A DNA stretch of 64,000 nt from Antedon mediterranea. Lineage: Eukaryota > Echinodermata > Crinoidea > Comatulida > Antedonidae. The stretch lies in NCBI RefSeq assembly GCF_964355755.1, contig NC_092675.1:3320312-3384311 (forward strand). The letters are read 5' to 3'. Position 1 is the first letter of the stretch. Each line of letters begins with the position of its first letter. The notes beneath the pieces are model-generated. The model saw only the letters and a program-made list of their open reading frames with translations, did no database searches and was not told the origin of the DNA. The position numbers were made by a program, and so were the translations under genes. This document shows, in pieces, positions 441 to 62,961 of this stretch.

Positions 441-516
441 CCATTTTTGGTAATTAAACTTCGACAGATTCAGATTATGGGTAACCTTATCACTACCAAA
501 GTTGTACTAAACCTAC

Positions 517-3500
517 CAACTGAGGTTGTATATGTATGATCGTTAGTTGGACCAGTATTACTGCTTGGTGTTCGACCAGTATTACGCCTCCAATCAAATA
601 CATCAGCAATGTCCTGTGTGTAGTTACAAATATCGTCAAATTCAAAATTACAACCAGCTTTTAGGAAGTCGATAGCAACAACTGCTGGTTCCACTGTGTC
701 TAAGAATTGTTGATCAAAAAGAAATTTAACTTTTACACAAAATAGTAGTAATGAATGCAGGTACACACATGTTTAAAAATCGTTATATTTTACGAGTAGG
801 CTTGCATAATGTTTACAAACACATTGTATCATGGTACACAGGTCCAACTTACTATTTGCACACGGTCCATCGTAGATCCTAACATCATCCAATGATATAT
901 CGCCATAAATACCTGAGCCACACATTGCCTCGAAAACAAGCTTTGAAATAAAAGTTTAACAATTATTTTAAGATAACAAAAATGATTTACAAAATTCAAT
1001 AGAGCCGCAAAGCCTAAAATTAACGCAAAACGATGTGCGGCTTACTTTCATCCTTCCTCATATTATGATGTTGGAACCGTATGTAATGTTTAATAAAATG
1101 AAAATAGGCTTATAATAATAATATACCTACAATACCTCAAAATCACCAGTCCTATTCATAAGATAGACATGGCGAAGCCAAACGTCCATATGATGTCCCA
1201 CAATTCTTACAACTGGGTCTGCCGGCATAGCGCCACCAGCTGACCGAATGAACAAACTTAGCGCCCCTGTGTCCGATCCATACATATGATACCAAAACTC
1301 AACACACTGCTCTGGCTCTGTGATGGTCCAAACTGGAGATATCAGTCTAGCTTTGTGACCTTCGATTAGCTGATATTGCGATGTCTCAATGTACATGTAA
1401 CGTCCTGAAAAGAATGCATGGTTTAAAAAACGTTCACCTATACCATGCATACTCAGAATAAATAATCTAGACCTAATGTCTTTATATAAATTCAAAGCTG
1501 ACCCCGATTACTAAGAAATTTCTCAGTTTGAAGAAAAAAATACATTGTATTAATATTAGTGTAAGTTCTCGACAACGATTTGGCTTAGGTCTAAGTACTT
1601 AAAAAAGAAAACCATTTTGGCACACATGGCGTGTCATAACTATACTTTCGCTTTAATATAGTTTTTTGAGAAGAAGAAAAAAACTCTCATTACTTAAAAC
1701 CAAGGCATTCTAACAACAGGATGCTGAACTCCAAAGACCAAAGGCTTTATCTGTGGCTGCGACACGATCCGAATATGTACATAGTATGCCTACAGTACTG
1801 TTGATATTTGTCGCAGCCAGACATAAGATCAAAGGACTGTTAAGAGTTCCTATCTTGGCAAGGAGTTCAGTGTCCTATTGTTGGATTGCTTTGGTATAAA
1901 ACTGTAAAAATCAATACCGAGTTCAGTGCCAAATGTGTGATCCTGTGACGGCCCAGTATACCTTGTATCCGTTGCACCTCTACGAGATCGCCAATTAAAA
2001 TCGTCTGACTGATCTTGCCGGTAACCACAGTTGTCCAAAGTCTCAAACGAACATGATACATTCGCAATCTCAATATCGCCTAGAAAAACAATATTCTTTA
2101 TTCTTTTCTAATAACAAACAGCAAGACATGAACACAGCAAACAAATATTCGCCAGGATAACCCGTAAAAGTTTTCAACGATATTTTTTTAGAAAAATCGT
2201 GTTTTTTTAGTGGTGTGCAATTTTGTAATAACTTACCGTCTGTATCTTGACAGTAGGACTTTCTTATCGTGACGTCATCTATAGAAATGCTGTCGTAAAA
2301 CCCGTAGCTAGATCTAGATGTACTATCGCCTTCAAATACTACCTATACGTACCATATATTCATTTAGAAGAATAAAAATGTTTTAGTTCCCTTTCTATTA
2401 TCAAGATTATTGTCATTTAATTATTTAACATCTTTTTATACCAGGATTACACAATCAAGTAAAAGAAAAAACCTGCTGTGCGTTAACACGGTCCTCTCTT
2501 AAATACAAATAAATCGGGGGAAAAATTATTATTATTTAATTTAAACACATGGAAAATGATTTTTTACATAAAAATAAATAATTGAGTTATGAATTATAAC
2601 GATTGAGAGTGTTGTGTCTGTTTCAGTTAAGTTGATTTCTGGACAACAGTAAACTGATGTAATTCGACGTTTCAGTTAATTGGCAAGGGGAAAACGCTAC
2701 GTAGATATTCGGACAACTCTTTCTCCATCATCTATTACCTGGTAAGTTCTAGTTGTGTTTTCTTGTATTTGGACTTGGGCAGCGTGCCAAATACCGCCTC
2801 TATTTCCTGACAATGACCAGAGCGGGGTCCCCAGCAAGTCCGACGGGTTCGTACGTACACGCACACGTAGGTCTCCGACAGTACCTTCCATGTAGTACCA
2901 GAATTGAACACAAACAGTGTAGTTGTTAGTAGAAATTGGTGAAATGTAAGGAGATATAATTCGGGCAGCTTGCTGATTTCTAGAAACTTTTTTATAAAAC
3001 ATATAATAACCTGAAAAAAAGTACAATTAACAATCGTCATATTTCGTAATGCACATCACGTGGTATTATAAATACAAATTATGTAAGAATATATTTATAT
3101 GGAAATAGACCTTTTGAATTTACCCAACAGGTGGTTATTTTACTTGTGGGGGGGGGGGGGGAACTAACCTACTTAGTTACCTTATTGTTTACCTATATCC
3201 TTATTTTTAGTCGCGACTCTACAGCTCACTATGTCGGTCGGTCGGTCGGTCGGAAACACTAACTGAAATTTGACCACGTGACTGCAACCATTATCAACGA
3301 ATCATTTAAATAATTTAAACCATATGGAGAATGAAAATTGGTCAGGATATACCATAAGAAAAAAAGATATACATTTCCTTAATATAACGGTAGGCCTACT
3401 CGTCTATCCGTTTGAACGCCAATGAGTTTATATTTTCACCCCTGTATGTTTGTGTGTGTGTCTGTGAACAGCCTGGAGGCCACAATTTTTATCCGATTCT

Positions 3501-4413
3501 CACCAAACGTAGCCACAATGATCAATGACTCATCATATAATTGTGGTTACATTTTGAAGGGTCAGCTCAAAGATCAAGGTCCATCAAAAAAAAGAAAAAA
3601 ATACTAAAAAAAAAAAAAAAAAAACTTAGCGGGACTTGAACCTGCAATTTCAACTGTGTGAGGCTGGATACATACAATTACACCAAACTCTCATCCACAC
3701 CTTTTTAGTGTGCAGTTAGCCTATTTTTTAAAAACATATATATATTTTCCGGGGACATTTTATGTAGGGGAAATTTACAGTAGGCGGAGGTTTGTACTTT
3801 CGGAGTACCCTCTATAGTTTCCTTATACATACAATATAGAGTAGGCCTAAGCCCCGGCCTAAGCCCATTGTGATGAATATTTAACCAACGTAGAGCTTGT
3901 TATTAAATACCAAATATATTAAACTAATTAATACATTTAGGAACTTTTGCATGGCACCATCCTGCCATCATAATAATACCAACAATGGAGTAGAGTTGTG
4001 GCTTGGTGGTTATGATGCTTGGCTACAACTCCCAGGGTCCTGGGTTCAAGTCCCGTCACATATTCCAAAGACCAAAGACAGGCATCTGTGTATATGTTGT
4101 GAATGAACCTCTGAGGGTCCCTAATGATCACCCTCATCATTTAATATGGTAAAAAAAATCGGCGACGGCATCCTCACTCACCTGTGTTGTTTCCATATGT
4201 ATGGTCTGTATGTGGGTAGTCGTTCAAAAAAAACGGATTCAGATTGTGTCCGGTTCCGTACATCCTTCTCCAATTTCCATTAACCGAACTATCGTGTGTA
4301 AATCCGCATAAATCCGTCTCAAAGTTGCAGAATAAATCATCTGATACGGTAATCCCAATTAGGATGAGTAAATAAGCAAATAGAACAAACGGCTTCATGT
4401 TCTTCACAGCCAT
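517..4413 (-). CDS. MAM-domain secreted/membrane protein, 5' part (7 exons, 3' end outside window)
   Basis: Exons read on the minus strand: 4413-4182, 3010-2739, 2342-2237, 2079-1918, 1404-1136, 940-853, 699-517; all junctions are GT-AG and the phases join. The first 437 residues begin with a signal peptide (MAVKNMKPFVLFAYLLILIG), then two complete MAM domains and the first third of another. Each MAM domain is split over three exons in the same way: an opening exon with CNFETDLCGF-type cysteines and a GP..DHT motif, a middle exon with G.YM and EQCVEFWYHMYG, and a closing exon with VVFEG...ISIDDV and a cysteine. Identical exon layout implies growth by duplication of a three-exon unit. MAM domains are extracellular adhesion or oligomerisation modules (meprin, RPTPmu, zonadhesin types); which protein this is cannot be told without the 3' end. 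The start at 4413 is chosen because it directly precedes the hydrophobic leader; an in-frame ATG at 4467 would add 18 residues. Confidence 0.88.
1720..1890 (+). repeat. Interspersed repeat R1, copy 1 (inverted mate near 12.1 kb)
   Basis: The stretch containing TTTGTCGCAGCCAGACATA, AGATCAAAGGACTGTT and CAGTGTCCTATTGTTG reappears in reverse orientation at about 12080-12235, where TATGTCTGGCTGCGACAAA is read on the plus strand. About 150 bp are recognisably shared. It lies in a MAM-gene intron, just 3' of exon 4. Class unknown; an old transposon remnant is likely. Confidence 0.65.
3208..3286. mobile_element. MITE family C, copy 1 (CGGT-core element)
   Basis: A short element with outer GTCGCG / CACGTGAC inverted ends, the phrase CTCACTATGTCGGTC, a (GGTC)n tract, then AAACACTAACTGAAATTTG. 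The same architecture is found at 6221, 14851, 16153 and 16783. It sits in the first intron of the MAM gene. Confidence 0.7.
3420..3600 (+). repeat. Interspersed repeat with CCACAATTTTTATCCGATTC motif
   Basis: The segment contains CTGTGAACAGCCTGGAGGCC, CCACAATTTTTATCCGATTC and CAAAGATCAAGGTC, followed by a long A tract. Its phrasing is that of a dispersed non-coding repeat, not of a gene; the 61-codon reading frame through it shows no domain. A polyadenine tract and a tRNA-like segment follow at once. Confidence 0.4.
3625..3705 (-). repeat. tRNA-derived SINE-like head
   Basis: Read on the minus strand it has a B-box-like GGTTCAAGTCCCGC and, upstream, GATGAGAGTTTGGTGTAAT in the A-box position. 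The arms do not pair as in a working tRNA, so it is called a tRNA-derived repeat. Confidence 0.5.
3975..4135 (+). repeat. tRNA-derived SINE family S1, copy 1
   Basis: GAGTTGTGGCTTGGTGGTTA (A-box region) is followed by GGTCCTGGGTTCAAGTCCCG (B box) and an unrelated tail. The same head is found on the minus strand at 39240-39442 and, more diverged, at 41270-41370. Repetition plus non-tRNA arms argue for a SINE rather than a tRNA gene. It lies in the first MAM intron. Confidence 0.65.
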
Positions 4414-4469
4414 GTTTGTTGTTGGTAAATGAACGAACATTACAGTGACTTGTTGTGATGGGGGCACGT

Positions 4470-6220
4470 TATTACTTGATTTATTGACAGCAGATGTTAT
4501 ATTGATGGTGATAGGTACCTTTGGTACCTCTCTGCTCTCATAAGGTTAAATATGTGCACTTTATCATTGTTTAGAAGTTGAGCATTTATGGAGGAAGTTA
4601 AAAAATAGTGTCATTGAACTTAATATGCGATAATATAGAATATTTATCCATAGTTTAAATCGTGGATTTTAGTTTGGGTCTTATCGTCACTGTCTAGTAG
4701 GATACATTTTTGTTGCATCAACATTTACAGAAAACATTGTAGAAATATTTTTTTAGATACAATAATGCACACACAGGAGCCAAAGTAATCAAACATTGAT
4801 AACACCGTAAATTGAACAAAAAAAAACAAAGTTCAAAATATCAAGAAAATAAGAAAAAGAAAAGAAATAATGCTTTTGCCTTGAGCTTTGTTTATACAGA
4901 CCCACAGACGGAATATTTTAACAAACTGTTAGAAATAATGCAATGAGACTGAGAAAGCAAATGTTTATCATTTTCAAAATATCATCTCAAATGTCATGAT
5001 TAGTTAAGAGTATGCCCGGTATAGTAGGCCTACAATGATTTTCAAATGAATGCTAACTTATAAAATGTGTATATTATAATGTTTTCTTTTTAGGTCAATT
5101 ACTTTGTATTTTGTCGCTGGTGGAATATTTGAAAAATACTGCGTTATTACTGCAAATAAAAATATATCAAACACAGGGCTTTTTTAAATGCTGCCCTCAA
5201 CTAACTCAAAGATAAACATCCTTACTCTATCATGATTGGATAGTTTGAGGTTATGGGTGGAGCTTACATAAAACGTGCGTCAGTAACTATTGGCCAATCA
5301 CAGCGGTTGGGGCTTAGTAACTTTTTTTGTAATAACGTGTGTAAAAATGCAAATTCATTCTCTGTCCTTTTCTGAGAATTGTCAAATCCTTTTCTTTTAT
5401 GTCACGTTGTCCTTCATCTGGTTCGATTATTAGGAGATACACCCTCATCCTCAATCAAGCTAAAACCCACACACTTGTTAATTGCTTACAAGGTTTTGAA
5501 ATGACTCAATTGAATGATGAATATATGAGTTATAGCAAAATGTGCATCATCCAAAATGTTAAAGACCGATCAGGAAAACCAGTTAATTTAGGCATTTGTG
5601 TTAATTGAAGCATGTTTGCAATACACTACGGAGGAAGGAAGCAATGTGAAGTTGAGAAGTCTCTGTAACATCGTCCTTTAGGGTAATCCTATTCAAAGTA
5701 AAATTGAGGCGAATTTAAAGTGACTAATCTAATGTGATTAATAACCACACAGCAATTGCAATAGGAGCAGGGTATAATGGTGACTAAATCAAACAAGGCT
5801 TATATAGTTGACACTTATTTTGGTCGTCTCATAATTTAGGCGCTCAAACACTTTGTTTTGCTTAATTTTTTCTCAGCCATTTCAAATTATGTCAAATATA
5901 TCTGTAGACTAAACAAATATTTATTGGGAATCCATTTTACAGTTCCGTAGTTGTAGAGAAATCCTTGTAATCATGAATATTATTATTCTCAAATAAAAAT
6001 ATACAACAAATTAATGTTTATGGAAAGAATATTTCCACGAGTTGAAAGTTGAACTGGTCCAATTATTTGTATAATATGTTATAATAATAATAATTTATAT
6101 AGCGCACATATCCACTAAAAGTGCTCAATAATGTTCTTATGTTGGAGTTTTCGATGTCTAATGCATTCCAATAATCATTGTAATTTCTCATAATTTGTGT
6201 TTTGCTTTTTAATTTTTAAT
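4470..6220. other. Intergenic; no gene seen
   Basis: AT-rich DNA upstream of the MAM gene. The longest frame (5399-5608) shows no recognisable domain or splice context. The proximal part should hold the MAM promoter, but no convincing TATA box could be assigned. Confidence 0.5.
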
Positions 6221-46499: not shown

Positions 46500-47335
46500 C
46501 ACCACCTACTAAAGATGATGCCACAATCACATTTTAATTAATATTCATACGAATTTAATCCAATCGTCTTTTTTAGTTTTACCATTTGTTCAGTACAAGG
46601 GCCAACTCCATAGAATAGTAATAAATATATAAACAAGAATATTTCTTACAAAAAACGCTGCTCGCTTATCTTTACTCCATGTTGTTATTGCTAAGGTCAA
46701 GTCTGGGGGTCACTTCATCACGCCTAGATACTTCAAGTATCCTATTACAAACAAAAACTTCAATGGACTGTTTTGATAATAATTCAATGATTATCTGACA
46801 GCGAATTATATCATGGGACTCATAAATACCAGAATGCTTTGGGATTTGTCGTTAGACTCTTTTCTCAGCCGTTTTTGGATTCAACAGGTGGTACCAATAA
46901 ATTATAGTGGAGTTTCCATTTTAACAAAAATGTCAAAGTGTAGTACTATAAAGCTGCTTGATTTCATCTAATGAATGAGTCATCTCGTGTGACGTAGCGG
47001 GCTAGAGCAGCAGCGTGAAAAGATAAACGGGAAATTCAACATGTGACCATGAGAATATCATCATGGCATTCATTAGATCTACGTGTCTACAACAACATGG
47101 AAACAAATAGATCATGTATTTAACGTATAGAACTACTACTAATAAAATGCAGTGACTTATTTTTATTTTATATCACTCTGATCCACTAGCACCAAATTGG
47201 GTCCACTGAGCACAGTGTATTAACATAGGCCTACGAATAAATATACAAACTTAGTGACAATTTATCTGTGCTCCACGTGCGCAAAATTTGGTCCACACAC
47301 ATAAATATCATATTAACCTTGTTAAAACCAAATTG
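46500..47335. other. Divergent intergenic region; no gene seen
   Basis: Lies between the divergently oriented FAM174-like gene and the nucleoplasmin/BEN gene. It holds two copies of a weak phrase (CCAAATTGGGTCCAC, CAAAATTTGGTCCAC) that recurs at about 48210. Confidence 0.4.
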
Positions 47336-47337
47336 AC

Positions 47338-47600
47338 CAGTTAGCTCAGTTGCCTGTGCGTCGTGTTGACAATACGTATGTCGTGGGTTCGATTCCCACG
47401 CTGATCGGTGGAATAGAGTTAAAGGTATGCGACCAACTGTGTTTGGAGTTCATAGAATTATACGTCTTTCCACCACACATCATGAGGCGACAACAACAAT
47501 GCATCTGATGATGTGCTGGAAACGACCCCAAAAGGCTGTGGCAGGGCCTTAGTGCTGAGGCAGGGAGAGCACATTTAACATCTTTTTTTTTAATTTTATT
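47338..47600 (+). repeat. tRNA-derived SINE family S3
   Basis: The head GTTAGCTCAGTTGCCTGTGC (A box) ... GTGGGTTCGATTCCCACG (B box, perfect T arm) is followed by ~180 bp of unrelated body. The acceptor arms pair only with G-T and mismatches and the anticodon arm has a 5-nt loop, so a SINE is preferred over a tRNA-Val-like gene. Confidence 0.6.
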
Positions 47601-51400: not shown

Positions 51401-54400
51401 AACAGTTTTTTTGCAACTTACTAATTAATTTAAAGATGAACATTTGTAAAGTAAAAAGAAAAAAATAGTATAATACATGCAACTTTTGCAACTTATTATG
51501 TAATGTAAAAATTGTCATGTTGACTGTAGATACTTATTAAACGTTAAATTATCTGTCCTAGTTGTACATTAAGATCAATTTATTGAGAAATTTCAATTTA
51601 CCATTTTCGTGAACTGATTTTATAACAATTTTGAATACACATTTAAAAACAATGAGTAATATAACAAAATGAATACACAACATTTTTTTGTCATTAGATC
51701 CCAAACCATCAGGTCTAGCTCAAGTAATTGTAAGGCATGACCGTACAGAGTTCTTACTCTGTTCCTTACACCACGGCCATCTTCATCAACAGCCTTTAAA
51801 CTTGTGTTTTTCGGAGGGTGAAGAGGTTACGTTTTTTATGGAAGGAAAGGGTAAGTAATTGAATTAAATCTTCATTCAGTTGTTGTCATAGTCAGCCAAG
51901 TCGAATATAATGTATGGATCGCAATGTAAAGTAAAAGTTGTACAGTAATATATTCTTATCTACTATTAGTATATTCCTATCTACAGTAATATATTCCTAT
52001 CTACTGTAACAGATAGTTGTTTAAAGGCTTTCTTCTCAATCATACATTGGATAGTCAAACACAATTCCTATCTACAGTAATATATTCCTTTCTACAGTAA
52101 TATATTCCTTTCTACTGTAACAGATAGTTGTTTAAAGGCTTTCTTCTCAATCACACATTGGATAGTCAAACACAATTCCTGGCTAACTGAATAGAATTCC
52201 ATGGGAGTTGAATTTATAGCCCAGTTAAATTTAGCAACCACTGCCTGCCAGTAGAACTGAATGTGGCCTCAAGCGATTAAAATTCAAATGTTTTCTGGTG
52301 TTTTTTGTTGTTGATAAAGCCAAGGTTAAAAAAAAGGTAGCCTGGTGAATAATCCAAGTACAGACCCATTTACCATAGTTGAATTTACCAAAGGGAACAA
52401 AGCTTTTGTCAGGCTTCACACACTCTGTAGAGAAAAGGCCATGTGACCAAGCTTGTGTAAAAAGTCCAATGTTGCTCCAATGCTATTGTCCCCAAAAACA
52501 TGAAAAATGAAGATTAATTAAATCATACTTTGAATATGTTATTTGGTAGTTTGAATAAAGTTTATCCCTTCCCGTAAAAAAAAATATATTTAAAATTAGA
52601 AAGTAAATGGTCAAATTCAACCAAAAGCCCATTGGCTGGCAGCCAATTTGATTATTTTTTGCTTTAAATTACAGTTTTTTAAGGTAAATACATTTTTTTT
52701 TCGATTCAATTTTTGTTCATGACATTAAAATGGCATATTAAAAAAAAATGCTTCAACTAATTTTTTCAGGGGGAAAATACATGATCTTTAATGTATTATT
52801 ATGACATATTTGTAAGATTAGATGACACACTTAATATTATATTTATGTATAGGTATGGTACATTTAAGTGGATTCCTTAGGCCGTCATTCAATATGGATG
52901 ATGGTGATATGGACTATCCATCAATGTCAGAATCTGAGTCTGAGGAAAGCCTAGGGAACACATCAGACGGTAAGTACGACTGGTTTTTTACAAGGAAATT
53001 TCGCTACAAACAATCGGATGTTTGATGGAAGATGGAGGTGCATGAAGAAGGCAATTGTTGAACCAACACTATAACATCAGAATTGTATATCATCTGTGGA
53101 GAACCATTATGACTTGCCAAGCCATGTGTGTTCATCATTTAATCAAGTTTAATTCCTCAAGAAAATAATCCTGACTTTGTTGCTGTTGATCTGACGCAAA
53201 CAAAATTGTTCAGTGTCCTGATAGAAAATAATTTTTTCCTGCTTTAATACTGTTTTTGAATGTATTTGTATATATTATTTTCAAATTTCAGAATTTTTTT
53301 TTTCATAATTTATTATGTTTAATATGCTTGTAATAGAGTTTTATCTCAGATCTGGTCTCAAATATGTACAACACTAGCTGAATACTTAAACACTAAAAAA
53401 GAAAAGGTAGGGGCGTTTAAATGAGGTTAAGGTTATTTTCAAAGATTTTCAATTGGCTGCGACCACATATTTCGCGGTGGTTATACCACAAAAAGCGTTT
53501 ATTAATTCCAAGACAATTACAAGAAAAAAATGGGTGAGTTTTCTTATCCCAATTTTTAATTTAACATTTTATATAAAATTACCATTACAAATTGAACTCG
53601 TTTTTAAAAAGGCCTTTTGTTTTAAATGGCTAGAAATCAGACCTATTATTTACCGCAATAGGTTGAATAAGATGTTGTACATATTTTGGACCAGATGGGT
53701 TACCAAGGGGACGTCCACCCTTGCATTACAAATCATGTTTATTTGCTTTTCAGATGTACACACGTCTCCTATGTTCTATGCTAGAATGCGGGGACGAAAT
53801 CTATATCATAAACCGAAACGGAAACGGCCGGGGTGGCGAGTTACAGAAAGCGGAAAAGACATCGGCAGACAGGATAATTCATCAAAAGTAAGGGACCCAA
53901 GATCACAAAATAGGAGCATTATGCACGGAAATGTAGAAAGACAATGGCGGAAAAGAAAGAGGCATAAGAAAAGGAGAATGGAAGACGGAAAAAAGGTGGC
54001 TGGGCAGAGTTCAGAAAAAGAGAGGGGACCAGAAACGCCGGAAGAAAGGAATTTGTCGCAAAGAATGGCCAAAGAAAGAACTAATGAAATGCAATCGGAA
54101 TCTAGTAGATTAAGGGTTGGACAGCAAGGGCAGGCTGCTCACACTGACACAGTAAGAACTTCACAAAGTAGTGAGCAATCTTATATAAGAACTACTAACA
54201 TTCCTGCCAATGTCCATCAAGTTGATCCATCTAGAATTTCAGCCATGAATATTAGCAGCTATCCAACAGCCTTAGAATCGCACATACACCACGTTTTTCC
54301 TCCGGTGTCAAATATTCGTGGCAGCTTACCCGTACACGGTGCTTCTCCTATATTACTGCAATCACAAAAAACAATGTCCCACTCGATGCAGTCTACCACA

Positions 54401-57400
54401 ACTGAAAGTAGTTTAAGACATAATAATACTGGTAGGATACCCAGTAACCTTAATTTACCCCCCAAAATACACACCCAACCTCATCAAATTAGCACTAGTA
54501 GTACAGCAGAATCGAGCAGTCCAATTATTGTCTCGTCAAAATCGTTACAAGTTATGTCTGTCGAACCGCCTTTAGAAGGAATGGAAACGGTAACGCCACA
54601 AATCGTGTCCACACAATCATTAGCACCACCAGATAATAACAGCCCGCCTCCGCACCAAGGGCTAGAGGACAGTGCCTCGCAAGAAAGGAATTGGAGAGAT
54701 TTTCAAGCAAGACTTGCAGATGAGGCAAGGAAGTCGCTGTCTGCAAGAGCAGAAAATGATGCAGCATCAGTTGAGGTCGTCGAGATGCCTCCAGGTAAAG
54801 ACAAATATCAATAATAGTGCAAGTTTACAATGCATGCTTAACCTTCCCTGGCTCCTGGCTGATTTAAAATCCTGGCTCAAGCACAGTCTATCTTCATAAT
54901 CACAACATGTGCTTTAGTTGAAATATAAAAACACTACAACAATTAACAACATTTTAATCATGTCTTATTCCTTTAACAAATTCGGCTATTTTATATTCTG
55001 ATAAATTCAATTTACGTAATTGATATATTTATGCATTGATTTTAACTTTGATGGTTTGATATGGTCCATAATGTCTATCCTTTCAAGTAATTTTTAGCCA
55101 AGCATCCTTGACATAATAATATACCTTTGATACTGAATATCTATTACAGACAGTGAAAATGACCAAACCGTAAAGCAGGAGACATTACCAATAGATATTG
55201 ACCAACCCGGGCCAAGTCGTGACGTATCCATTCCCATAATACCTGACGCTGTGGGCGTTGGTGGCGTAGTAAAGTACAATAATGATGGAAATCCTTGTTA
55301 CTTTGACCTAACGTCCGGGGTAAGTCTTGACGTGATAAATCATTATAGTTTAAAGGCGCCCTCTATTTTACCTGCGGCATTGAGATTGATACCCAAATTC
55401 CTAATTGCATTTTTAGGTTTGAAAAATGGCAATCTCAAGACTTTAAAGTTAATTTGCTTTTTAGATTAATGTTTATGCATGAAACAAATCGATTCAATTT
55501 TCTAATTTAAATTATAGTTTGTTTAATTATCTTGTAATAAATTCAGTCTCAACTTTGCAATGACTAAAAAAGGTTTCCTACAAATAAACTGAAAGTATTC
55601 ATGTGTAAATATTTTCTATGTGATTATTTTTTTCAGTTTAGTTCATACATTAATAATAATATATCCTTGATTTATAAAGTGTCCAATGTCGATGATGACA
55701 TGAGAGATGTACATACAAAAAAAATCCCAAATACCGCGTCTTTGTACAGTATGCTTCACAATTGGACTATCTGGTTTTGCTATGTAGTGTAGCATTAAAG
55801 CTTGGTTCCCACTAGAACGTAACGCAAGGACGTAAACTCAAAGCAAGCGTTTTAACCAATGACAAGCAAAGTTATAGACAGTTAACAATCACAAGCGAAT
55901 AAGCCATCGCTTGTGATTGGTCAATTCACTTGCGTTGCGTTACGTCCTTGTGTTGCGTCGCTAGTGGGAACCAAGCTTTATGGTGTCTTGTTCCTACTTT
56001 GCTGTGATATTTATCAACACTTTAATTAGATTCTTAGATAAAGTACAATACATTAGATTTAGAGAGAACTAAATGTTTTATTTTGTTACAGCCTGATGTC
56101 GATACAGTACGGTTAGCTGAAGGCTATAACGTCTTCATCAGCAAACGTAGACTGGCCGACATCGAGCAGGCCTCGCGAGAATGTTCTCGCAACCCATGGT
56201 CATTATGTATTCGTCGTTTACTGGATGCATTTTTTGACCGTGAAACGCTTGCCATGGGCAAAGCAACTGACCATGGTCATTCTAAAAATCCAAATCGTCA
56301 ACCTTTGAACCAGGAGATTATTCAAGCAATTAAAGGTGAGTTTACATTAATGTTTTATGGCTTTTATGATTTGTTTTCCCAGACAAAAAAAAACATTTAG
56401 GTGTCTGAAATGATCGCGTTTGTAGTTTATTAAATTTTAGTGAACAATTTTTAAAAAAATTTTAAAAATGATGTAAATTATTGTAATATGAATATGATTA
56501 CAAAGCATTTTTAACCTGTTGTGATTTCTGAAATATTCACAAAAATTTTCTTTTACGCCAGTTAGTGACTCCAATAATCACATTTTATACCAATATTTAG
56601 AAATTGCAATTCAAAATTGGAAGCTTGTTTTTAAGGTCACAGATCACTATCTATTTTTAGAAAAACTAAATTACTGCCATCTTGGAAGGAATTGAACCCA
56701 ACACCTTCAGTATGAAAAAGTCGCCTTTAGACCATCCTGTAATCACAAAATAGTGTTAATTTTTAATTTAAAATCAATTTAATTTGGCTTGATTTAATTT
56801 ATGCTAATATTACTATAGTTGATTGATAATATAATCTGTAATAATGATTGCTAAAAATAGAAAGGAGATGCAAAGTTTGTCTTTATTATCTAAAGCATGA
56901 ACCTAAATGTTTTTGGGAGAACAAATCAGAAGGAAAATGCACTTGATGGCTTGGTTTCAGTCCATGAACGAACTTAGTCTATTCATAATCGTCGGTATCT
57001 ATTTTCTAAAAATGCACTATGCACTGATTTCATTTACATTTTTTACAGTACGATATGGTGCTTGTTAAAATACAAATTAAATTATTGAAATACACACATT
57101 AATAAAAGTATCTAAAAACAATATCAAACCAGTAGTTTTTAAACGATATTTAACACTAATTCAATTTGAGTACTATGAATAAAAGACAGAACCGTGATTA
57201 GACCCCTGAACCAACAATACTTGCAACTGTTTAGAAACAGTTAAATAAATTATATTCAAGTACTGTATATTAATCTGAAATCTCAAATTGAGGAGAATTT
57301 AATTACTAAAAGATGCGTCTCAAATCTTGGCAGGCGCGAATTTAGCCAAAATTTAACAGCCAATGTATTTTAAAAATAAAATGAATATTTTTTGGGGAGG

Positions 57401-60400
57401 AAATATGTTTACATCGATAGTAGTCTAGATTTAATATACGAATTATGTATTACAAAGAATTTAAAAAGAAAAACATACTGATACCTATGGTTTTAAATTG
57501 AATGAACTTGTGATAAAACCTCTGTTTTAGTACTGCAGTATTTGAAATGTTAAAAGATGATTTATAAATGGTATTTCTGAGTGCATTGTTGTCATGGATG
57601 TGCCAAGTTCAAGTGTATTTTTCTTATGTATGTGTCAGTATATATCTTCAATCAATTCCGTGCATGGGTTTACCCATGTTATAATAACCAATAGAAGAAT
57701 ACCAAGCAGGATATTTGCTTGGATCTCTGAACATCCAAATATTATCAACTGAGATCATGGAATACAAGATGAGATGTTACCATTAGATTGATTACGATGA
57801 TGATCTCTAGTGTCTGCAAGCCGTTTTGTTTTGTTGTAAATGTAAAATACATTAATTTGTGATTTTGTGAAAAAATATTAGGTTAGCATGTAAAAGTAAT
57901 TACTATACCATTTAATAATTGTTCTAAGGTTCAATATTTACGAAGAAGCAGTTGTGCGGTGTAGATATTTTGTTTAGCTACGAAAAGTAGTTTAAAAATG
58001 AATTCTACAGAATGAGTTTGCAGTTTTTTTTCTAATGTTTGTTTCGCAGTGTCGAGTAAAAAAATAGTTGACTTCAATTGTAATATGACATATGAATATA
58101 CGATTGTTTTCATACAGTAGGTTAAAAAAAACCTGGTGTACATCATTAGTAGTAGTAGACTTTTATCAACAGATTGTAATGCTCTATTGTAAATAATTCT
58201 AGAATGCTTTCGTTTTGTAAATCCACATTTTGTGGTACAATTATTACAACATCAATTAACAGTTTACTGTTATCAATATATTGTTTGATTCAAGTTTACA
58301 TTTTATGACTGGCCTCTGATGCCAAACCAGATCTACAGGTGTACCATCATATAAGCTAATCATGTTTTGGTGTATTATTGGCCAGTGTGATTGATATAAA
58401 AGATTTGAGGATAAAAATATAGATTCTTATATTACCCATAATATTGGTGTAACTTACAAAAATTGTTGAACTCCATGTAGCTTCAAATCAAACGGTTTGA
58501 ACTTTGAGCTTATAGATAGTTTGACCCACTATGACCTTTGGCTTGACACGCTACTCTTTTCTTTCTGGTAGCTTTCACACAGAAAAGATGCAACTTATTT
58601 GAGACTGACAGTAACCGAATAATAGCGGGATACATCCAAGATATCCGCCGAGTAGACCGTAGGCAGGCTTTGAAGTTGTCTGCGACTTCAATTGGCAAAG
58701 AATATCAGAATGACATTTGAAAATATGTTGCTAACCTAACAATAACTTGTTGATTAAAACTGTTAACTTAAATCAATCTTCATACAATGAAAAATATTAG
58801 TTCCAGAAAGGGCCTAAACAAATAAATCAAATTCTGAAAATATGTACAATAGCCCCAAAATGTTTTAACAACAACGGTAAACGTCTGACATTTTTCTATA
58901 ACACATTAACAATAATCATAATGCAGGTTATCACTTGCTACAGTACTATAGAATTAGGGATTATTTAACATAATTTGTTAATATTTCAAATGAGATCGTG
59001 GAATATAAGATGCCATCATTCGCTTTTTGATTGATTATGATAGTTTCTAGCGTCTGCAAGCCGTTTTGTTTTAAATGTAAAATAATAATTGTTGTGGTTG
59101 TTAATTTGATTTCTCATTTTGTGTAACCACAAAACTACCCGTGATCTGTGTGAGTGGTTTAGACAGTTTCAAAGCTCGACGCACTATGACCTTTGGCCTG
59201 ACACGCTACTCTTTTCTTCCTGCTAGCTTTCATGCAGAAGAGATACAACAAATGCAAAGGGCATGACTGTAACCGAATAATAGCTGGATACATCCGCAAT
59301 AGCCGTCGAGGATGCCATCGTCGAGCTTTGGTGTTGTCTGCGACTGATAGTGCTGGAGTGTATTGGATTCCTAAAATTTAAGTGTATGAAAAATGTACAT
59401 AGTTTTAGTTACCTTGAGATTTTCTTAAATATGTAAGGTCTTTATTAAATATAGAGAAACAAAATACAGTCTATATTTCTGATTGCATGCTGTAGTTAAA
59501 ATAAAATGAACAGTAGAATACATCAGTCACTCCAAAGTCAAAATTATAACCTTTGGCCTGACATGCAACTATTTACTTCCTGTTAGATTTTTTGTTGTAA
59601 CGGTTAAACAATCTGAGATTAAATAAACCAAATGAAGCCTGTAGACTTCAAAGATATCCGCCGAATCTTGAGAAAAAAAAATTAATGCTTAGAGTTGGGT
59701 AGTGTGTGTCCCTGAATACATTTGGATAACACATTTCCTACAGTAGGATGTTTAAATACTGTAAAATCAGCTTCTACCTGTACTCAATAAAATGAACAGT
59801 TTACAATGAACTTTTTTTGACATAGAAATTGTAATGCATTACTTAGTCACTACCTTATGGTATGTTATTCAACATTAGGGTCGTTTCTCTGTGTTTTTAA
59901 ATTTAGAAAATACTTGTAAATCCACTGCCAATCAAGCTGTTTTAAATTTTACCAGTTTCAACGTACTAAATGACCTTTGGTCTGACACGCTACTATTTTC
60001 TTCCTGCTAGCATTCGTGTTGAAGCGGTTTGACAAATCAAAGCCCGAAAGTAACCAAATAATGGCTGTATACATCAACGATATTCGCCGAGTCTCGACTA
60101 GAAGAAGATTCAGAGCTGAGACTTCTAAAGACTACTGTCCGAATACTTTTATATAAAAATGTAGAGGATTTTGAAATACTGTACTGTCAGACTCTATTCT
60201 ATACAGACTTGATAAAATAAATTGGTTGGTTTTCTGTGAATTTAGAAAATAATAAAAGTGAACAGTAATTCCAATCAAGCCGTTTTAAACTTTGTCAGCA
60301 TCAAAGCCTAACGTACTAAAATGACCTTTGGCCTATTTTCTTCCTGCTAGCTTTTATGGAGAAAAAGTTCAACAAATCTAATACTGAATCTAACCGAGTA

Positions 60401-62961
60401 ATGGCTGGATACCTCAAAGATATCCGCCGAGGATTTAACCAAGGCTATCTACAGACAACGAGAAGATACACGGCTCAGCATGCCAACCTAGGAACGTTGA
60501 TGTTATCTCAGACTGGGACTAATTTGTATTACAGTAGTAGCTGATAACATTCTAGTTTTATGGTGTTTATTCTTATTTAATTTGTTACAGTATCAATTGT
60601 ACTTAAACTGTTCTGACTGACATACAGCCAATAATAATGATTTAGGTATTTGTATAGCGCCAGTATCAAATAAACCAAAGTAAAAATCAAAGGCGCTAGC
60701 ATTAGATGTGATGCATTTTAAGTTCTTTTTTATAAAATAACAATGGATGGTGATTTAGTAATATGTCGAGGGAGAGAATTCCTTAGGATTTGGTGTTCAT
60801 CATATTTAACTGCAAACATAGTTTTAAGTTGATATTTGTTGTTGAATCGTTGAATTTTTACAATGTTCGCATTGTGTTGCTAGGCCTAGGCTACTCTGTA
60901 GGCACTAACGTATGGCTATCCATAGCCTGACCTAACCACAGCTTCTAAGATGTACAGTACTGGTTCCAACATAGTAGAATAGCACCACGACATGATCATT
61001 AACATCGTTCATTCACTCACATGTCTACTTAAATCGTGACATTCAATTACTTTGTTTTAAAGTGAGTCAATTTTGGGAGATTGAAGTTGGGATAAAGTCA
61101 TAGATGAAACCCTTGATCAATAGTAGTAATATCCGTTGTTTACAGCTGAAAGAATTGAAGAAATGAAAGGTGTTTTATTTTCTGGAAAATCTCGGCAATG
61201 TTGATTTACTATAATTACTGTACTAATTTTTTGTATAAACGGAGGTTTGGTTAATTTTAAAGATTTACATTGTTAGAAATGCATCTGTGAACATTGAGAA
61301 TTAATTTAGCTTCAATTAAAGTAATTTCTAATGATGTCCAGCTTTAGACAGTTTCTGACGCACTATGACCTTTGGCCTGACACTACTCTTTTTTTCCTGC
61401 TAGTTTTCGTGCTGAAACGGTTCAACAAATCTAAGCCCGAAAGTAACCAAATAATGGCTGTATACATCAAAGATATCCGCCGAACCTCGTACAGAAGAAA
61501 TGTTATTGCTGCGAATAGGAATGAGTGTCGATTTGCTTTTATGTAATAATGTACTGTAGAGGATGTAAACAAAAAATAATATAACTTCAGCATTTAAATC
61601 AGTAAAATAAATTTTAGGTTTAGTTCAACAACTTAGATTAATTTGCTTAGAAATGTCTCCACATTTTAGAGGTTGACTTGTGTGTTGCTTCTCTGACCAG
61701 TGTTTGGGTTTTTTTTTTCTCGAATTTACAAAGTAAGATTGGCAATGTTATTATCAAGCAAGCCGTCTTTTACCTCCACTTAAAATGACCTTTGGCCTGA
61801 CACGGTACTCTTTTCTTCCTGCCAGCTTGCATGCAGAAATGCTTCAACAAGTCTAATCCCGAGACTAACCGAATAATAGCTGGATACATCAAAGATATCC
61901 GTCGAGGATCGTACCGACTTTGAAACTACAGATGAGAGTATCAAGTAATATTATATAACTACAGTACTATACACACGCTTGGTAAATTAACTATAGATAT
62001 GAACTTGATAATTTAACTACTGTATAGAGGTTAGGTTTAATCGACTTTTGCATAGAAATTTCCACAAATTTAGAATTGGATTTCTTACTTGTGTCTACAG
62101 TATCTTGTTAAATCAACCTGAATTATACAGATGGTTTTGTTTTCTTGAATCTAAAAATTTAAAATACTGTAGTAAATTCCATTTTATCTACTGTAAACAA
62201 CCTCTAGATGGTTAAATTTTTATAATTGTACATAAAAATATTCTGTGAGCAATAGAGTTCATGTAGATTCAACTTAAACCTTAGACAGTTTCAAAGCCTG
62301 ATGACCTTTGATCTGACACGCTACTCTTCTCTTCCTGCTAGCTTTCGTGCAGAAAACGTGTAGCTTATTCGAGTCGGACGTTAACCGTGTAATAGCTGGA
62401 TACATCCGAGATATCCGTCATGGAGATAAACGCAGAGAATACCGGGCTTTGAAGTTGTCTATGGCCGAGTGTGTCCGGAATACATTTAATTGAAAAATGT
62501 GTAATTCATTCATTGGGTTGTTGAAATTAGCTGTAGGGTACTTTTTAGTACAGTTTTATGGTCATTGGTATATTATTGTTTTAATCAACTGTATATGGAC
62601 AAATAGAGCAGTGATATTTTATTGTGAATAAAAATGAATTTTGAAGAAAAAACAAATGTTGAACAAATATTGGATTATTTTTTTAATTCATGTAGCTTTA
62701 AATCCAGCCCTTTAACTTTGACCTTAGACAATTTCAAAGCCTGACGCACTATGACCTTTGGCCTGACACGCTACTCTTTTCTTCCTGCTAGCTTTCATGC
62801 AGAAAACGTGCCAGGAATCTGAATCTGACAGTAACCGAATGATAGCGGGATACATCAGAGATATCCGCCGAGGCTACCGTGCTCGGGCTTTGAAGTTGTT
62901 TACGGCCGAGAGCGTCAGCTCAAATGACTTGCCAGCTCACTATTACTATTCATTCAACTAA
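48493..62961 (+). CDS. Nucleoplasmin-like + BEN domain protein with alternative terminal exons
   Basis: Constant exons: 48493-48502, 49439-49537, 51698-51850, 52853-52969, 53754-54794, 55150-55319, 56092-56335. These 611 codons then splice in phase 1 to one of several terminal exons (separate entries); with the first, the protein is 660 residues. Residues 1-105 are a nucleoplasmin-like fold: MFWGLSIEGGKHYSQIVNET opens as in insect nucleoplasmin-like and FKBP39 proteins, and MEGKGMVHLSGFL closes it. An acidic SESESEES tract (116-123) follows, then a ~390-residue disordered, Ser/Gln-rich linker with basic nuclear-localisation clusters (146-151, 192-201). Residues ~535-611 begin a BEN domain (NVFISKRRLADIEQASRECS, WSLCIRRLLDAFFDRETLA). 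Nucleoplasmin domains make pentamers and bind histones; BEN domains bind DNA or protein. The fusion rests on phase-compatible splicing across 53 kb; transcript data would settle it. Confidence 0.8.
49102..49180. repeat. Inverted repeat, ~21-bp arms
   Basis: ACTTCCACAAAACCAACCTA and CA face TGTAGGTTGGATTGTGGAAG and T, about 37 bp apart, in the first intron of the nucleoplasmin/BEN gene. Probably a small MITE. Confidence 0.6.
49645..49770. mobile_element. MITE family B, copy 7 (ends eroded)
   Basis: TTGACAAAAAAGTTTGATGT, ATATGGTAGTGATATGACAT and a decayed right end TTTGAATTTGTAGACAGAAC. In intron 2 of the nucleoplasmin/BEN gene. Confidence 0.75.
50293..50437. mobile_element. MITE family B, copy 8
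   Basis: AAAGCTTTGTCTACACTATT to TCATAGTGTAAACAGAGCT; in the same intron as copy 7, about 520 bp downstream. The rest of this intron (to 51697) is AT-rich and holds no supported gene. Confidence 0.8.
51967..52185. repeat. 111-bp tandem duplication in intron 3
   Basis: CTACTGTAACAGATAGTTGT and the following 60 bp occur at 52001 and again at 52112, differing by very few bases. Short TACAGTAATATATTCCTWTC units flank both. A recent local duplication. Confidence 0.85.
55794..55982. mobile_element. MITE family A, copy 10 (intact)
   Basis: AAAGCTTGGTTCCCACTAGA to TCTAGTGG-type right arm CGCTAGTGGGAACCAAGCTT. Almost the same as copy 1 at 6632-6815 through its whole length, including CAAGCGAATAAGCCATCGCT. 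In intron 6 of the nucleoplasmin/BEN gene, 110 bp before the BEN exon. Confidence 0.88.
56675..56755 (-). repeat. tRNA-derived repeat remnant
   Basis: On the minus strand, CAGGATGGTCTAAAGGCGAC (A-box region) and GTGTTGGGTTCAATTCCTTC (B-box region). Arms do not pair like a tRNA. It lies in the intron between the BEN exon and the terminal-exon array. Confidence 0.5.
56756..58530 (+). other. Intron preceding the terminal-exon array
   Basis: AT-rich, no exon seen. The stretch at 57745-57850 (GATCATGGAATACAAGATGA ... GTCTGCAAGCCGTTTTGTTT) matches 58985-59085, the upstream part of the second array unit, so the duplicated unit is longer than the exon and its acceptor region. Confidence 0.55.
58572..58720 (+). 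CDS. BEN terminal exon T1
   Basis: Acceptor TTTCTGGTAG; phase-1 entry; stop TGA 58718-58720. Encodes AFTQKRCNLFETDSNRIIAG, YIQDIRRVDRRQALKL and a short tail, 49 residues after the shared first codon. It supplies the last helix of the BEN domain (N-R-I-I-A-G-Y-I-Q-D-I-R-R). AATAAA at 58821. As the first exon of the array it would be the default if acceptors competed purely by order; its acceptor (GGTAG) is also the only one that departs from CTAG/CCAG/TTAG. Confidence 0.78.
59227..59381 (+). CDS. BEN terminal exon T2
   Basis: Acceptor CTTCCTGCTAG; stop TAA 59379-59381. Encodes AFMQKRYNKCKGHDCNRIIA, GYIRNSRRGCHRRALVLSAT and a tail ending WIPKI. It differs from its sisters by an inserted residue in the variable stretch (KCKGHDC, two cysteines) and NS in place of DI before RR. 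AATAAA at 59500. Confidence 0.75.
59587..59680 (+). pseudogene. BEN terminal exon T3, degenerate
   Basis: The conserved acceptor block (ATAACCTTTGGCCTGACATG ... CTTCCTGTTAG) and the late motif AAAGATATCCGCCGAATC are present. In the inherited frame, though, a TAA occurs at the codon that encodes Lys in the other exons, and small indels shift the rest. An AATAAA remains at 59786. If spliced it would truncate the BEN domain after four residues. Confidence 0.7.
60011..60156 (+). CDS. BEN terminal exon T4
   Basis: Acceptor CTTCCTGCTAG; stop TAA 60154-60156. Encodes AFVLKRFDKSKPESNQIMAV, YINDIRRVSTRRRFRAETSK and a tail ending NTFI. With T6 it forms a subgroup in which N-R-I-I-A-G is replaced by N-Q-I-M-A-V and the variable stretch is KSKPES. 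AATAAA at 60216. Confidence 0.78.
60351..60544 (+). CDS. BEN terminal exon T5
   Basis: Acceptor CTTCCTGCTAG; stop TGA 60542-60544. Encodes AFMEKKFNKSNTESNRVMAG, YLKDIRRGFNQGYLQTTRRY and the longest tail of the array (64 residues in all), ending YYSSS. Its upstream conserved block is about 11 bp shorter, lacking the GACACGCTACT part. AATAAA at 60669. Confidence 0.78.
61404..61546 (+). CDS. BEN terminal exon T6
   Basis: Acceptor TTTCCTGCTAG; stop TAA 61544-61546. Encodes VFVLKRFNKSKPESNQIMAV, YIKDIRRTSYRRNVIAANRN and a tail ending FAFM. The splice-spanning codon becomes Val instead of Ala (G|TT). Closest to T4. AATAAA at 61606. Confidence 0.78.
61826..61923 (+). CDS. BEN terminal exon T7
   Basis: Acceptor CTTCCTGCCAG; stop TGA 61921-61923. 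Encodes ACMQKCFNKSNPETNRIIAG, YIKDIRRGSYRL and stops, the shortest of the set (33 residues including the junction codon). No AATAAA was found before the next unit, so its 3' end is unclear. Confidence 0.75.
62342..62493 (+). CDS. BEN terminal exon T8
   Basis: Acceptor CTTCCTGCTAG; stop TGA 62491-62493. Encodes AFVQKTCSLFESDVNRVIAG, YIRDIRHGDKRREYRALKLS and a tail ending RNTFN. The last Arg of D-I-R-R is His. The LFESD variable stretch and ALKLS tail relate it to T1. AATAAA at 62627. Confidence 0.78.
62792..62961 (+). CDS. BEN terminal exon T9 (last of the array)
   Basis: Acceptor CTTCCTGCTAG; stop TAA 62959-62961. Encodes AFMQKTCQESESDSNRMIAG, YIRDIRRGYRARALKLFTAE and a tail ending YYYSFN. 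No AATAAA was found nearby; an ATTAAA occurs near 63448. Confidence 0.78.

Follow-up and report, generated by a model that had tools for sequence, protein, structure and literature searches.

We analyzed a 64,000-nucleotide stretch of the 354 Mb genome of the crinoid Antedon mediterranea (the window; contig C6, positions 3320312-3384311). Positions are given in window numbering, which continues past 64000 for the adjoining DNA; the genome position is 3320311 plus the number given. On the plus strand lie exons for part of a nucleoplasmin-like (NPL) domain, two linker exons, an exon for the first part of a BEN domain, and a tandem array of candidate terminal exons for the end of that domain (Table 1). 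Elsewhere in the window there is a tRNA match at 47335-47407 (38.2 bits), and several open stretches on the minus strand at 500-4545 resemble, by eye, repeated MAM-type extracellular domains. A different contig, C17, was considered as mitochondrial and seems not to be: the first 20,000 of its 20,646 bases contain an RT-like frame (by eye) and no other frame longer than 250 residues.

Table 1. Common exons, terminal exons and related copies at the locus (window numbering).
Feature	Position	Strand	Evidence
Shared exon a, middle part of NPL domain	51698..51850	+	Pfam NPL on a+b
Shared exon b, NPL end and acidic stretch, phase-1 donor	52853..52969	+	Pfam NPL on a+b
BEN-branch linker exon c, basic then Ser/Thr/Gln-rich	53754..54794	+	AG/GT, phase 1 to 1, open
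BEN-branch exon d	55150..55319	+	AG/GT, phase 1 to 0, open
Exon e, common first part of BEN domain, phase-1 donor	56092..56335	+	Pfam BEN 26.3 bits
Alternative terminal exon A1	58572..58720	+	Acceptor/frame, Pfam BEN completion
Alternative terminal exon A2	59227..59381	+	Acceptor/frame, Pfam BEN completion
Broken terminal-exon copy, acceptor kept, frame lost	59587..59700 (end approximate)	+	
Alternative terminal exon A4	60011..60156	+	Acceptor/frame, Pfam BEN completion
Alternative terminal exon A5	60351..60544	+	Acceptor/frame, Pfam BEN completion
Alternative terminal exon A6	61404..61546	+	Acceptor/frame, Pfam BEN completion
Alternative terminal exon A7	61826..61923	+	Acceptor/frame, Pfam BEN completion, NACC1 alignment
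Alternative terminal exon A8	62342..62493	+	Acceptor/frame, Pfam BEN completion
Alternative terminal exon A9, last in window	62792..62961	+	Acceptor/frame, Pfam BEN completion
Group B, ten exons	64458, 65176, 65762, 66373, 67201, 67860, 68505, 69199, 69700, 70468	+	Open, phase 1
Candidate terminal exon between groups B and C, VYTQLVFAVATTKLNTIIKERIFNVRRQLEASHGSYQMY	72246 (L019:2557)		Weak profile match, E 0.61
Group C, four exons	75400, 76178, 78443, 79475	+	Open, phase 1
Group D, two exons	80864, 81386 (end 81549)	+	Open, phase 1

Candidate terminal exons downstream of a single-copy BEN exon

The window contains nine homologous units at 58572-62961, of which eight are open in phase 1 with their own stop and one is broken. 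All eight open acceptors are preceded by AG, are in phase 1, and lead through 32-64 residues to the stop. The broken unit, at 59587, has retained its acceptor and reaches a stop after four residues, illustrating what loss of a copy looks like. Five residues are invariant in the eight open exons, which we call group A (K5, N15, A19, Y21 and R26, numbered as in the first exon). These observations bear out the initial annotation of this DNA, which had described nine units, eight of them open in one phase with separate stops, and a conserved core.

The eight exons fit the upstream BEN exon, as had also been proposed. Exon e comprises 81 codons and one base and ends in the donor gtgag; the junction is in phase 1 on both sides, and the frames are open once joined. 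In a search of the genome, exon e matched itself alone and no second copy was found. The 262-base group A unit had nine matches in the 354 Mb genome, all inside the array. Long phase-1 frames are not rare at this locus, with 197 of the 1,383 AGs at 56336-83700 yielding at least 32 open residues, so the case for the terminal exons rests on homology and not on openness.

Elsewhere in the genome, twelve BEN-domain frames exceed the Pfam cut-off at E <=0.001, and the BEN exon of the window is not among them. Four of the twelve are nearly equal in score (28.1-28.2 bits) and span, and may form a dispersed BEN family. At 55797-55980, in the intron that separates exon d from exon e, there is what looks like a small MITE-type element, with terminal inverted repeats of about 19 bases recognized by eye (AAAGCTTGGTTCCCACTAG ... 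CTAGTGGGAACCAAGCTTT).

The array beyond the window

The array runs on past the end of the window to 81549, with 16 further open terminal exons (C6:3384769-3401860). The earlier count of eight open exons thus holds inside the window and falls short of the whole array, which has 24 in four groups (8 in A, 10 in B, 4 in C and 2 in D) plus one candidate. We ran a profile of the eight group A exons over the window and 5.7 kb past it, and then over 40 kb more; 14 + 2 exons were added. Inside the window, this profile found no other BEN-domain ends (next best E 0.49). A weak match past the window end (E 0.023) turned out to belong to the second group.

All 24 exons lie within 23 kb on the strand of the common exons, and all 24 remain open after in-silico joining to exons a-b-c-d-e. 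The groups are spaced, with a gap at about 70.6-75.4 kb that contains the candidate at 72246. Joined to exon e, the candidate gave a BEN score of 36.1 bits; we left it out of the 24.

The groups differ in their similarity to group A. Group C matched the group A profile (76178, E 1.6e-9; 75400, 1.5e-5; 78443, 5e-4; 79475, 1.4e-3). The likeness to group A was weak for group B (best E about 0.003) and for group D (E 6.7 even against a profile of groups A and C). In searches of the genome with one peptide probe from each of groups B, C and D, the B and C probes returned this locus alone, and the D probe returned this locus and two weak matches on other contigs (E 1.6 and 4.1). We ruled out a dispersed-repeat origin because the unit, the conserved intron block described below and the B, C and D probes match just this locus, apart from the two weak D hits.

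Support for completion of the BEN domain

Joining a terminal exon to exon e extended the match to the Pfam BEN profile (PF10523; length 76; curated cut-off 23.2 bits). Exon e alone scored 26.3 bits over profile positions 3-45 of 76. With each of the eight window exons attached, the score was 36.0-40.5 bits and the match ended at position 55-72 of 76. As controls, nine computer-shuffled tails gave 25.8-32.6 bits, two hand-scrambled tails gave 28.9 and 25.9 bits, and reading through into the intron gave 26.9 bits. No BEN match was found in two terminal exons scanned alone. The best shuffled control (32.6 bits) was beaten by 18 of the 24 joins (8/8 in group A, 8/10 in B and 2/2 in D); group C failed this test (0/4), as did two of the ten group B exons.

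We also compared the joined proteins with the solved BEN domain of human NACC1 (8yzs and 7bv9). The BEN part without a tail matched at E 3.9e-6. With exon A7 (61826) attached, the match improved to E 3.2e-8 (residues 5-108) and continued through helix alpha-5, and with the group B exon 68505 it likewise took in the helix and reached E 1.4e-9. With the group C exon 76178, the alignment ended at 87-88, short of the helix.

These results support the interpretation that the terminal exons complete a BEN domain begun by exon e. Groups B and D are tied to the array by the Pfam test, phase and position. For group C the tie is the match to the group A profile, and the Pfam test contributes nothing.

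An NPL-FKBP gene as the probable host

The nucleoplasmin-like shared part claimed in the initial annotation is real. Exons a and b joined scored 52.2 bits against Pfam NPL (profile positions 38-92 of 94; cut-off 23.4). When the genome was searched exon by exon, a procedure that could miss a split NPL, no other NPL match exceeded the cut-off. Their matches in the PDB were weak and were to nuclear FKBPs (FKBP53, E 7e-4; FKBP43, 0.011; fly FKBP39, 0.17). Pattern scans did not find the first NPL exon (about 37 profile positions). All of the junctions from a through e are GT-AG, and one reading frame runs throughout.

Exons for an FKBP domain lie on the same strand downstream of group D. The first exon of the FKBP side (83779-83880; C6:3404090), about 31 kb from the NPL exons, fits the phase-1 donor of exon b and leads on into linker exons, acidic and basic; the frame stays open and in phase from the NPL exons to the third of these linkers. 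The downstream exons, with FKBP exon junctions that we set by eye, scored 110.3 bits for FKBP_C when joined. Proteins that combine NPL and FKBP form an established family according to the accounts in PMC5476585 and PMC4414354. The array gene would resemble its members FKBP39/46, FKBP53 and Fpr3/4 in having an N-terminal NPL domain, acidic and basic linkers and a C-terminal FKBP domain, and would differ from these nuclear immunophilins in its BEN branch. On the simplest interpretation, the BEN exon and the bank of ends probably sit inside an NPL-FKBP gene, which would also make an NPL-FKBP protein.

We considered whether there might instead be two genes, first an NPL-BEN gene that carries the terminal array and then, farther downstream, an independent FKBP gene that lacks NPL. 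Three observations are consistent with this: the separation of the NPL exons from those of the FKBP side by about 31 kb, an in-frame ATG just upstream of the first FKBP-side exon, and the best PDB matches of the FKBP domain, which were wheat and bacterial FKBPs, with the nuclear FKBP53 and Fpr4 lower. However, the phases and the acidic linker fit a joined chain, the combination of NPL and FKBP is that of a known family, and the genome search, within its limit for split domains, found no second NPL over the cut-off. We consider two separate genes unlikely, although with an appreciable chance of being correct.

The copies show protein-level constraint

Synonymous changes were more frequent than replacement changes among the terminal exons. 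In disjoint least-change pairs over all groups (24 anchored codons), pS was 0.40 and pN was 0.17 (77.3 of 192.2 synonymous and 115.8 of 671.8 replacement; p = 1.3e-10). The test assumes independent sites, and group C, with pS 0.74 and pN 0.26, is near saturation. By group, over the same 24 codons, p was 0.023 for A (median over pairings 0.052), 4e-5 for B, 1e-6 for C and 0.15 for D. For group A over 28 codons, the least-change pairing gave p = 0.008, and 69% of the 105 pairings were below 0.05 (median 0.017). In a neutral star-tree simulation of group A, with substitutions only, all eight copies stayed open in 1.7% of runs; the simulation expected 75.7 +/- 4.1 residue changes, and 65 were observed. 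We conclude that the copies show protein-level constraint, and that the signal in group A is moderate.

Synonymous divergence was uneven along the group A exons. The codons of the alpha-5 core (58610-58680 and equivalents) had pS 0.20, and the adjoining stretch had 0.62. The low value in the helix codons, together with the conserved intron block, may reflect an RNA-level signal or gene conversion.

If one or a few terminal exons were used, the others could be relics, that is, decaying tandem copies that are still in frame. The copy at 59587 is already broken, the constraint on group A by itself is moderate (pooled over all pairs, pS 0.38 versus pN 0.24), and the low synonymous divergence of the helix codons is as though the copies were young. 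Against this, there are 24 open frames and one copy identified as broken, the neutral simulation seldom kept group A open and expected more residue changes than were observed, and the signal of selection over all groups includes the diverged group C. Decay of most of the copies is therefore improbable, and we favor maintenance of the array.

Variation in the putative recognition helix

The swapped segment aligns with the helix that reads bases in NACC1. According to the description of the NACC1 structure in PMC11472053, alpha-5 enters the major groove, where D462, T465 and R469 contact bases; R468, N466 and R472 contact phosphates; R400 and R401 (alpha-2) and R429 (loop) hold the backbone; and R421 reaches into the minor groove. 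We placed NRIIAGYIKDIRR on NACC1 457-469 by the ungapped end of the alignment obtained with exon A7, with numbering derived from the residues named in that paper. Exon e retains equivalents of R400, R401 and R429, and the terminal exons carry the alpha-5 segment; the fixed part thus appears to be mostly scaffold and the swapped part the reader. The equivalent of R421 is not an arginine. The initial annotation had likewise pointed to the C-terminal helix, with the loop after it, as touching DNA in BEN structures.

The positions equivalent to the base contacts varied most. Among columns 457-469 in the 24 exons, the three highest entropies were at 465 (2.67 bits), 462 (2.10) and 469 (2.10). The probability that the three base-contact columns would be the most variable of the 13 is 1/286, although the related exons are not independent and the margin over the next column is narrow (2.10 versus 2.02 bits); with the first 22 exons, P was 0.010. 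In group A by itself, position 465 alone stood out. Entropies at columns 463, 464, 466, 467 and 468 were 0.50-1.39 bits, and the R468 equivalent was R in 22 of the 24 exons. Columns 470-472, just beyond the helix, were more variable still (2.78-2.92 bits), so part of the variation may reflect relaxed constraint.

The 24 exons contain 18 distinct triplets at 462/465/469. Exon 68505 has D, T, R, R and R at 462, 465, 468, 469 and 472, as in NACC1, and D in place of N466, making it the best candidate for a CATG reader. Judged by sequence only, the alternative exons encode different DNA-binding parts; the residue mapping and the variability at the base-contact positions support the difference in DNA specificity that had been predicted.

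A model for the gene and the choice of a terminal exon

Based on these results, we think it likely that a single transcription unit of the nuclear NPL-FKBP type (FKBP39/46) occupies the locus and that its 3' ends are of two kinds, one of which comprises about 24 alternative BEN terminal exons. The common 5' exons encode the nucleoplasmin-like domain, an oligomerization domain. From the phase-1 donor at 52969, the transcript would have two possible continuations: the FKBP-side exons, which lie about 31 kb downstream, or, as phase and order suggest, linker exons c and d and BEN exon e. Exon e, with the BEN scaffold and the counterparts of the NACC1 arginines R400, R401 and R429, would then be cis-spliced at its phase-1 donor (56335) to a single member of the set of about 24 terminal exons, which ends the protein. 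The chosen exon would supply the segment aligned with alpha-5, the part of the domain before that segment, and the tail. With a fixed scaffold and a swapped helix, the isoforms would be expected, from the residue mapping, to share oligomerization and scaffold and to read different DNA.

Sequences before the acceptors may bear on how an exon is chosen. The approximately 45 bases that precede each group A acceptor form a strongly conserved block, which holds, by eye, a branch-point-like TGAC and a polypyrimidine tract; its core (<=3 mismatches) occurs at six places in the genome, all in the array. Eight of the ten group B exons and group D have conserved pre-acceptor sequences of their own, different from that of group A, and by eye group C has none. 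Poly(A) hexamers follow seven of the eight window exons and are uninformative, since 35-95% of shuffled versions of these AT-rich stretches also contain one or more. The choice would probably be made by competition of similar branch-point/polypyrimidine blocks together with local 3'-end formation.

The terminal exons might also be joined by trans-splicing and not in cis. The architecture is the same as that of mod(mdg4) and lola; PMC4528330 and PMC12692577 describe trans-splicing for isoforms of mod(mdg4) and for at least one isoform of lola. The array is also in spaced groups, with a gap that holds a single candidate exon. However, all 24 exons are close together and share the strand of the common exons, a profile run over both strands of 110 kb found nothing on the opposite strand better than E 0.16, and cis-splicing suffices. 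We regard trans-splicing as quite improbable here and prefer splicing in cis.

Mutually exclusive splicing of the Dscam type, in which one docking site pairs with a selector before each exon, is very improbable: the group A block is strongly conserved and its core confined to the array, but the array exons are terminal and not internal, TGAC and the polypyrimidine tract account by eye for much of the block, groups B and D carry other sequences before their acceptors, and the best docking site for group A in the intron before A1 (-18.5; mean of shuffles -20.5) was equaled or bettered in 35 of 40 shuffled introns.

Relation to known systems

The Dscam1 clusters consist of internal exons with a shared end. 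The array resembles them in having tandem homologous exons, one of which is presumably chosen per transcript, and differs in that each exon ends the protein with its own stop, with no common downstream exon, and in that no docking site was found for group A. The analogy to Dscam drawn in the initial annotation is replaced by a closer parallel, mod(mdg4) and lola.

The array works like the mod(mdg4) and lola loci but is not filed as a homologue of them. As described in PMC4528330 and PMC11426971, mod(mdg4) has more than 30 isoforms and lola at least 20, made from common 5' exons and alternative 3' exons. In those genes (and in broad), common exons encode an N-terminal oligomerization domain and many 3' exons set the DNA-binding part, as the terminal exons here, each with its own acceptor and stop, would also do. 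What follows the BTB domain in those proteins is a set of C2H2 zinc fingers or a FLYWCH domain encoded by the 3' exon, whereas the cassette here brings just the final portion of a split BEN domain, and NPL stands in place of BTB in the exons that were identified. NACC1, the closest solved BEN domain by sequence, is alike in the base-reading alpha-5 and in the three backbone-holding arginines, and differs in lacking an NPL domain (it has BTB; PMC7764960), in the single alpha-5 of the solved BEN domain as reported for 7bv9 and 8yzs, and in the minor-groove arginine.

In PMC4414354, the legend of one figure recognizes just three kinds of NPL protein: NPL-FKBPs, HD-tuins and nucleoplasmins. In the open-licence PMC literature we found no BEN domain with FKBP39 or nucleoplasmin, which does not prove absence from print. 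Likewise, no BEN gene with alternative or duplicated terminal exons was found among the matches listed from that literature.

Implications

The isolated NPL domain of fly FKBP39 is a pentamer in the account of PMC4414354 and a tetramer in that of PMC5225439, and mixed assemblies are therefore conceivable. We offer as a conjecture, with a small chance of being right, that an NPL oligomer takes up BEN subunits carrying different members of the set of about two dozen recognition helices, so that mixed rings would form and read sites in combination, that the base-contact residues diversify on a fixed scaffold to track changing targets such as repeats or selfish elements, and that the gene can switch to an FKBP histone-chaperone end.

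If the proposed gene structure is correct, then a single gene could produce many chromatin proteins that differ in their targets. The NPL proteins would gain a BEN class, and the design of mod(mdg4) and lola would no longer be confined to BTB proteins. The locus would also be a natural case in which just the base-reading helix of one DNA-binding domain is swapped by means of alternative 3' exons, and the approximately 24 natural variants on a constant scaffold would offer a ready means of testing how a BEN domain selects its DNA.
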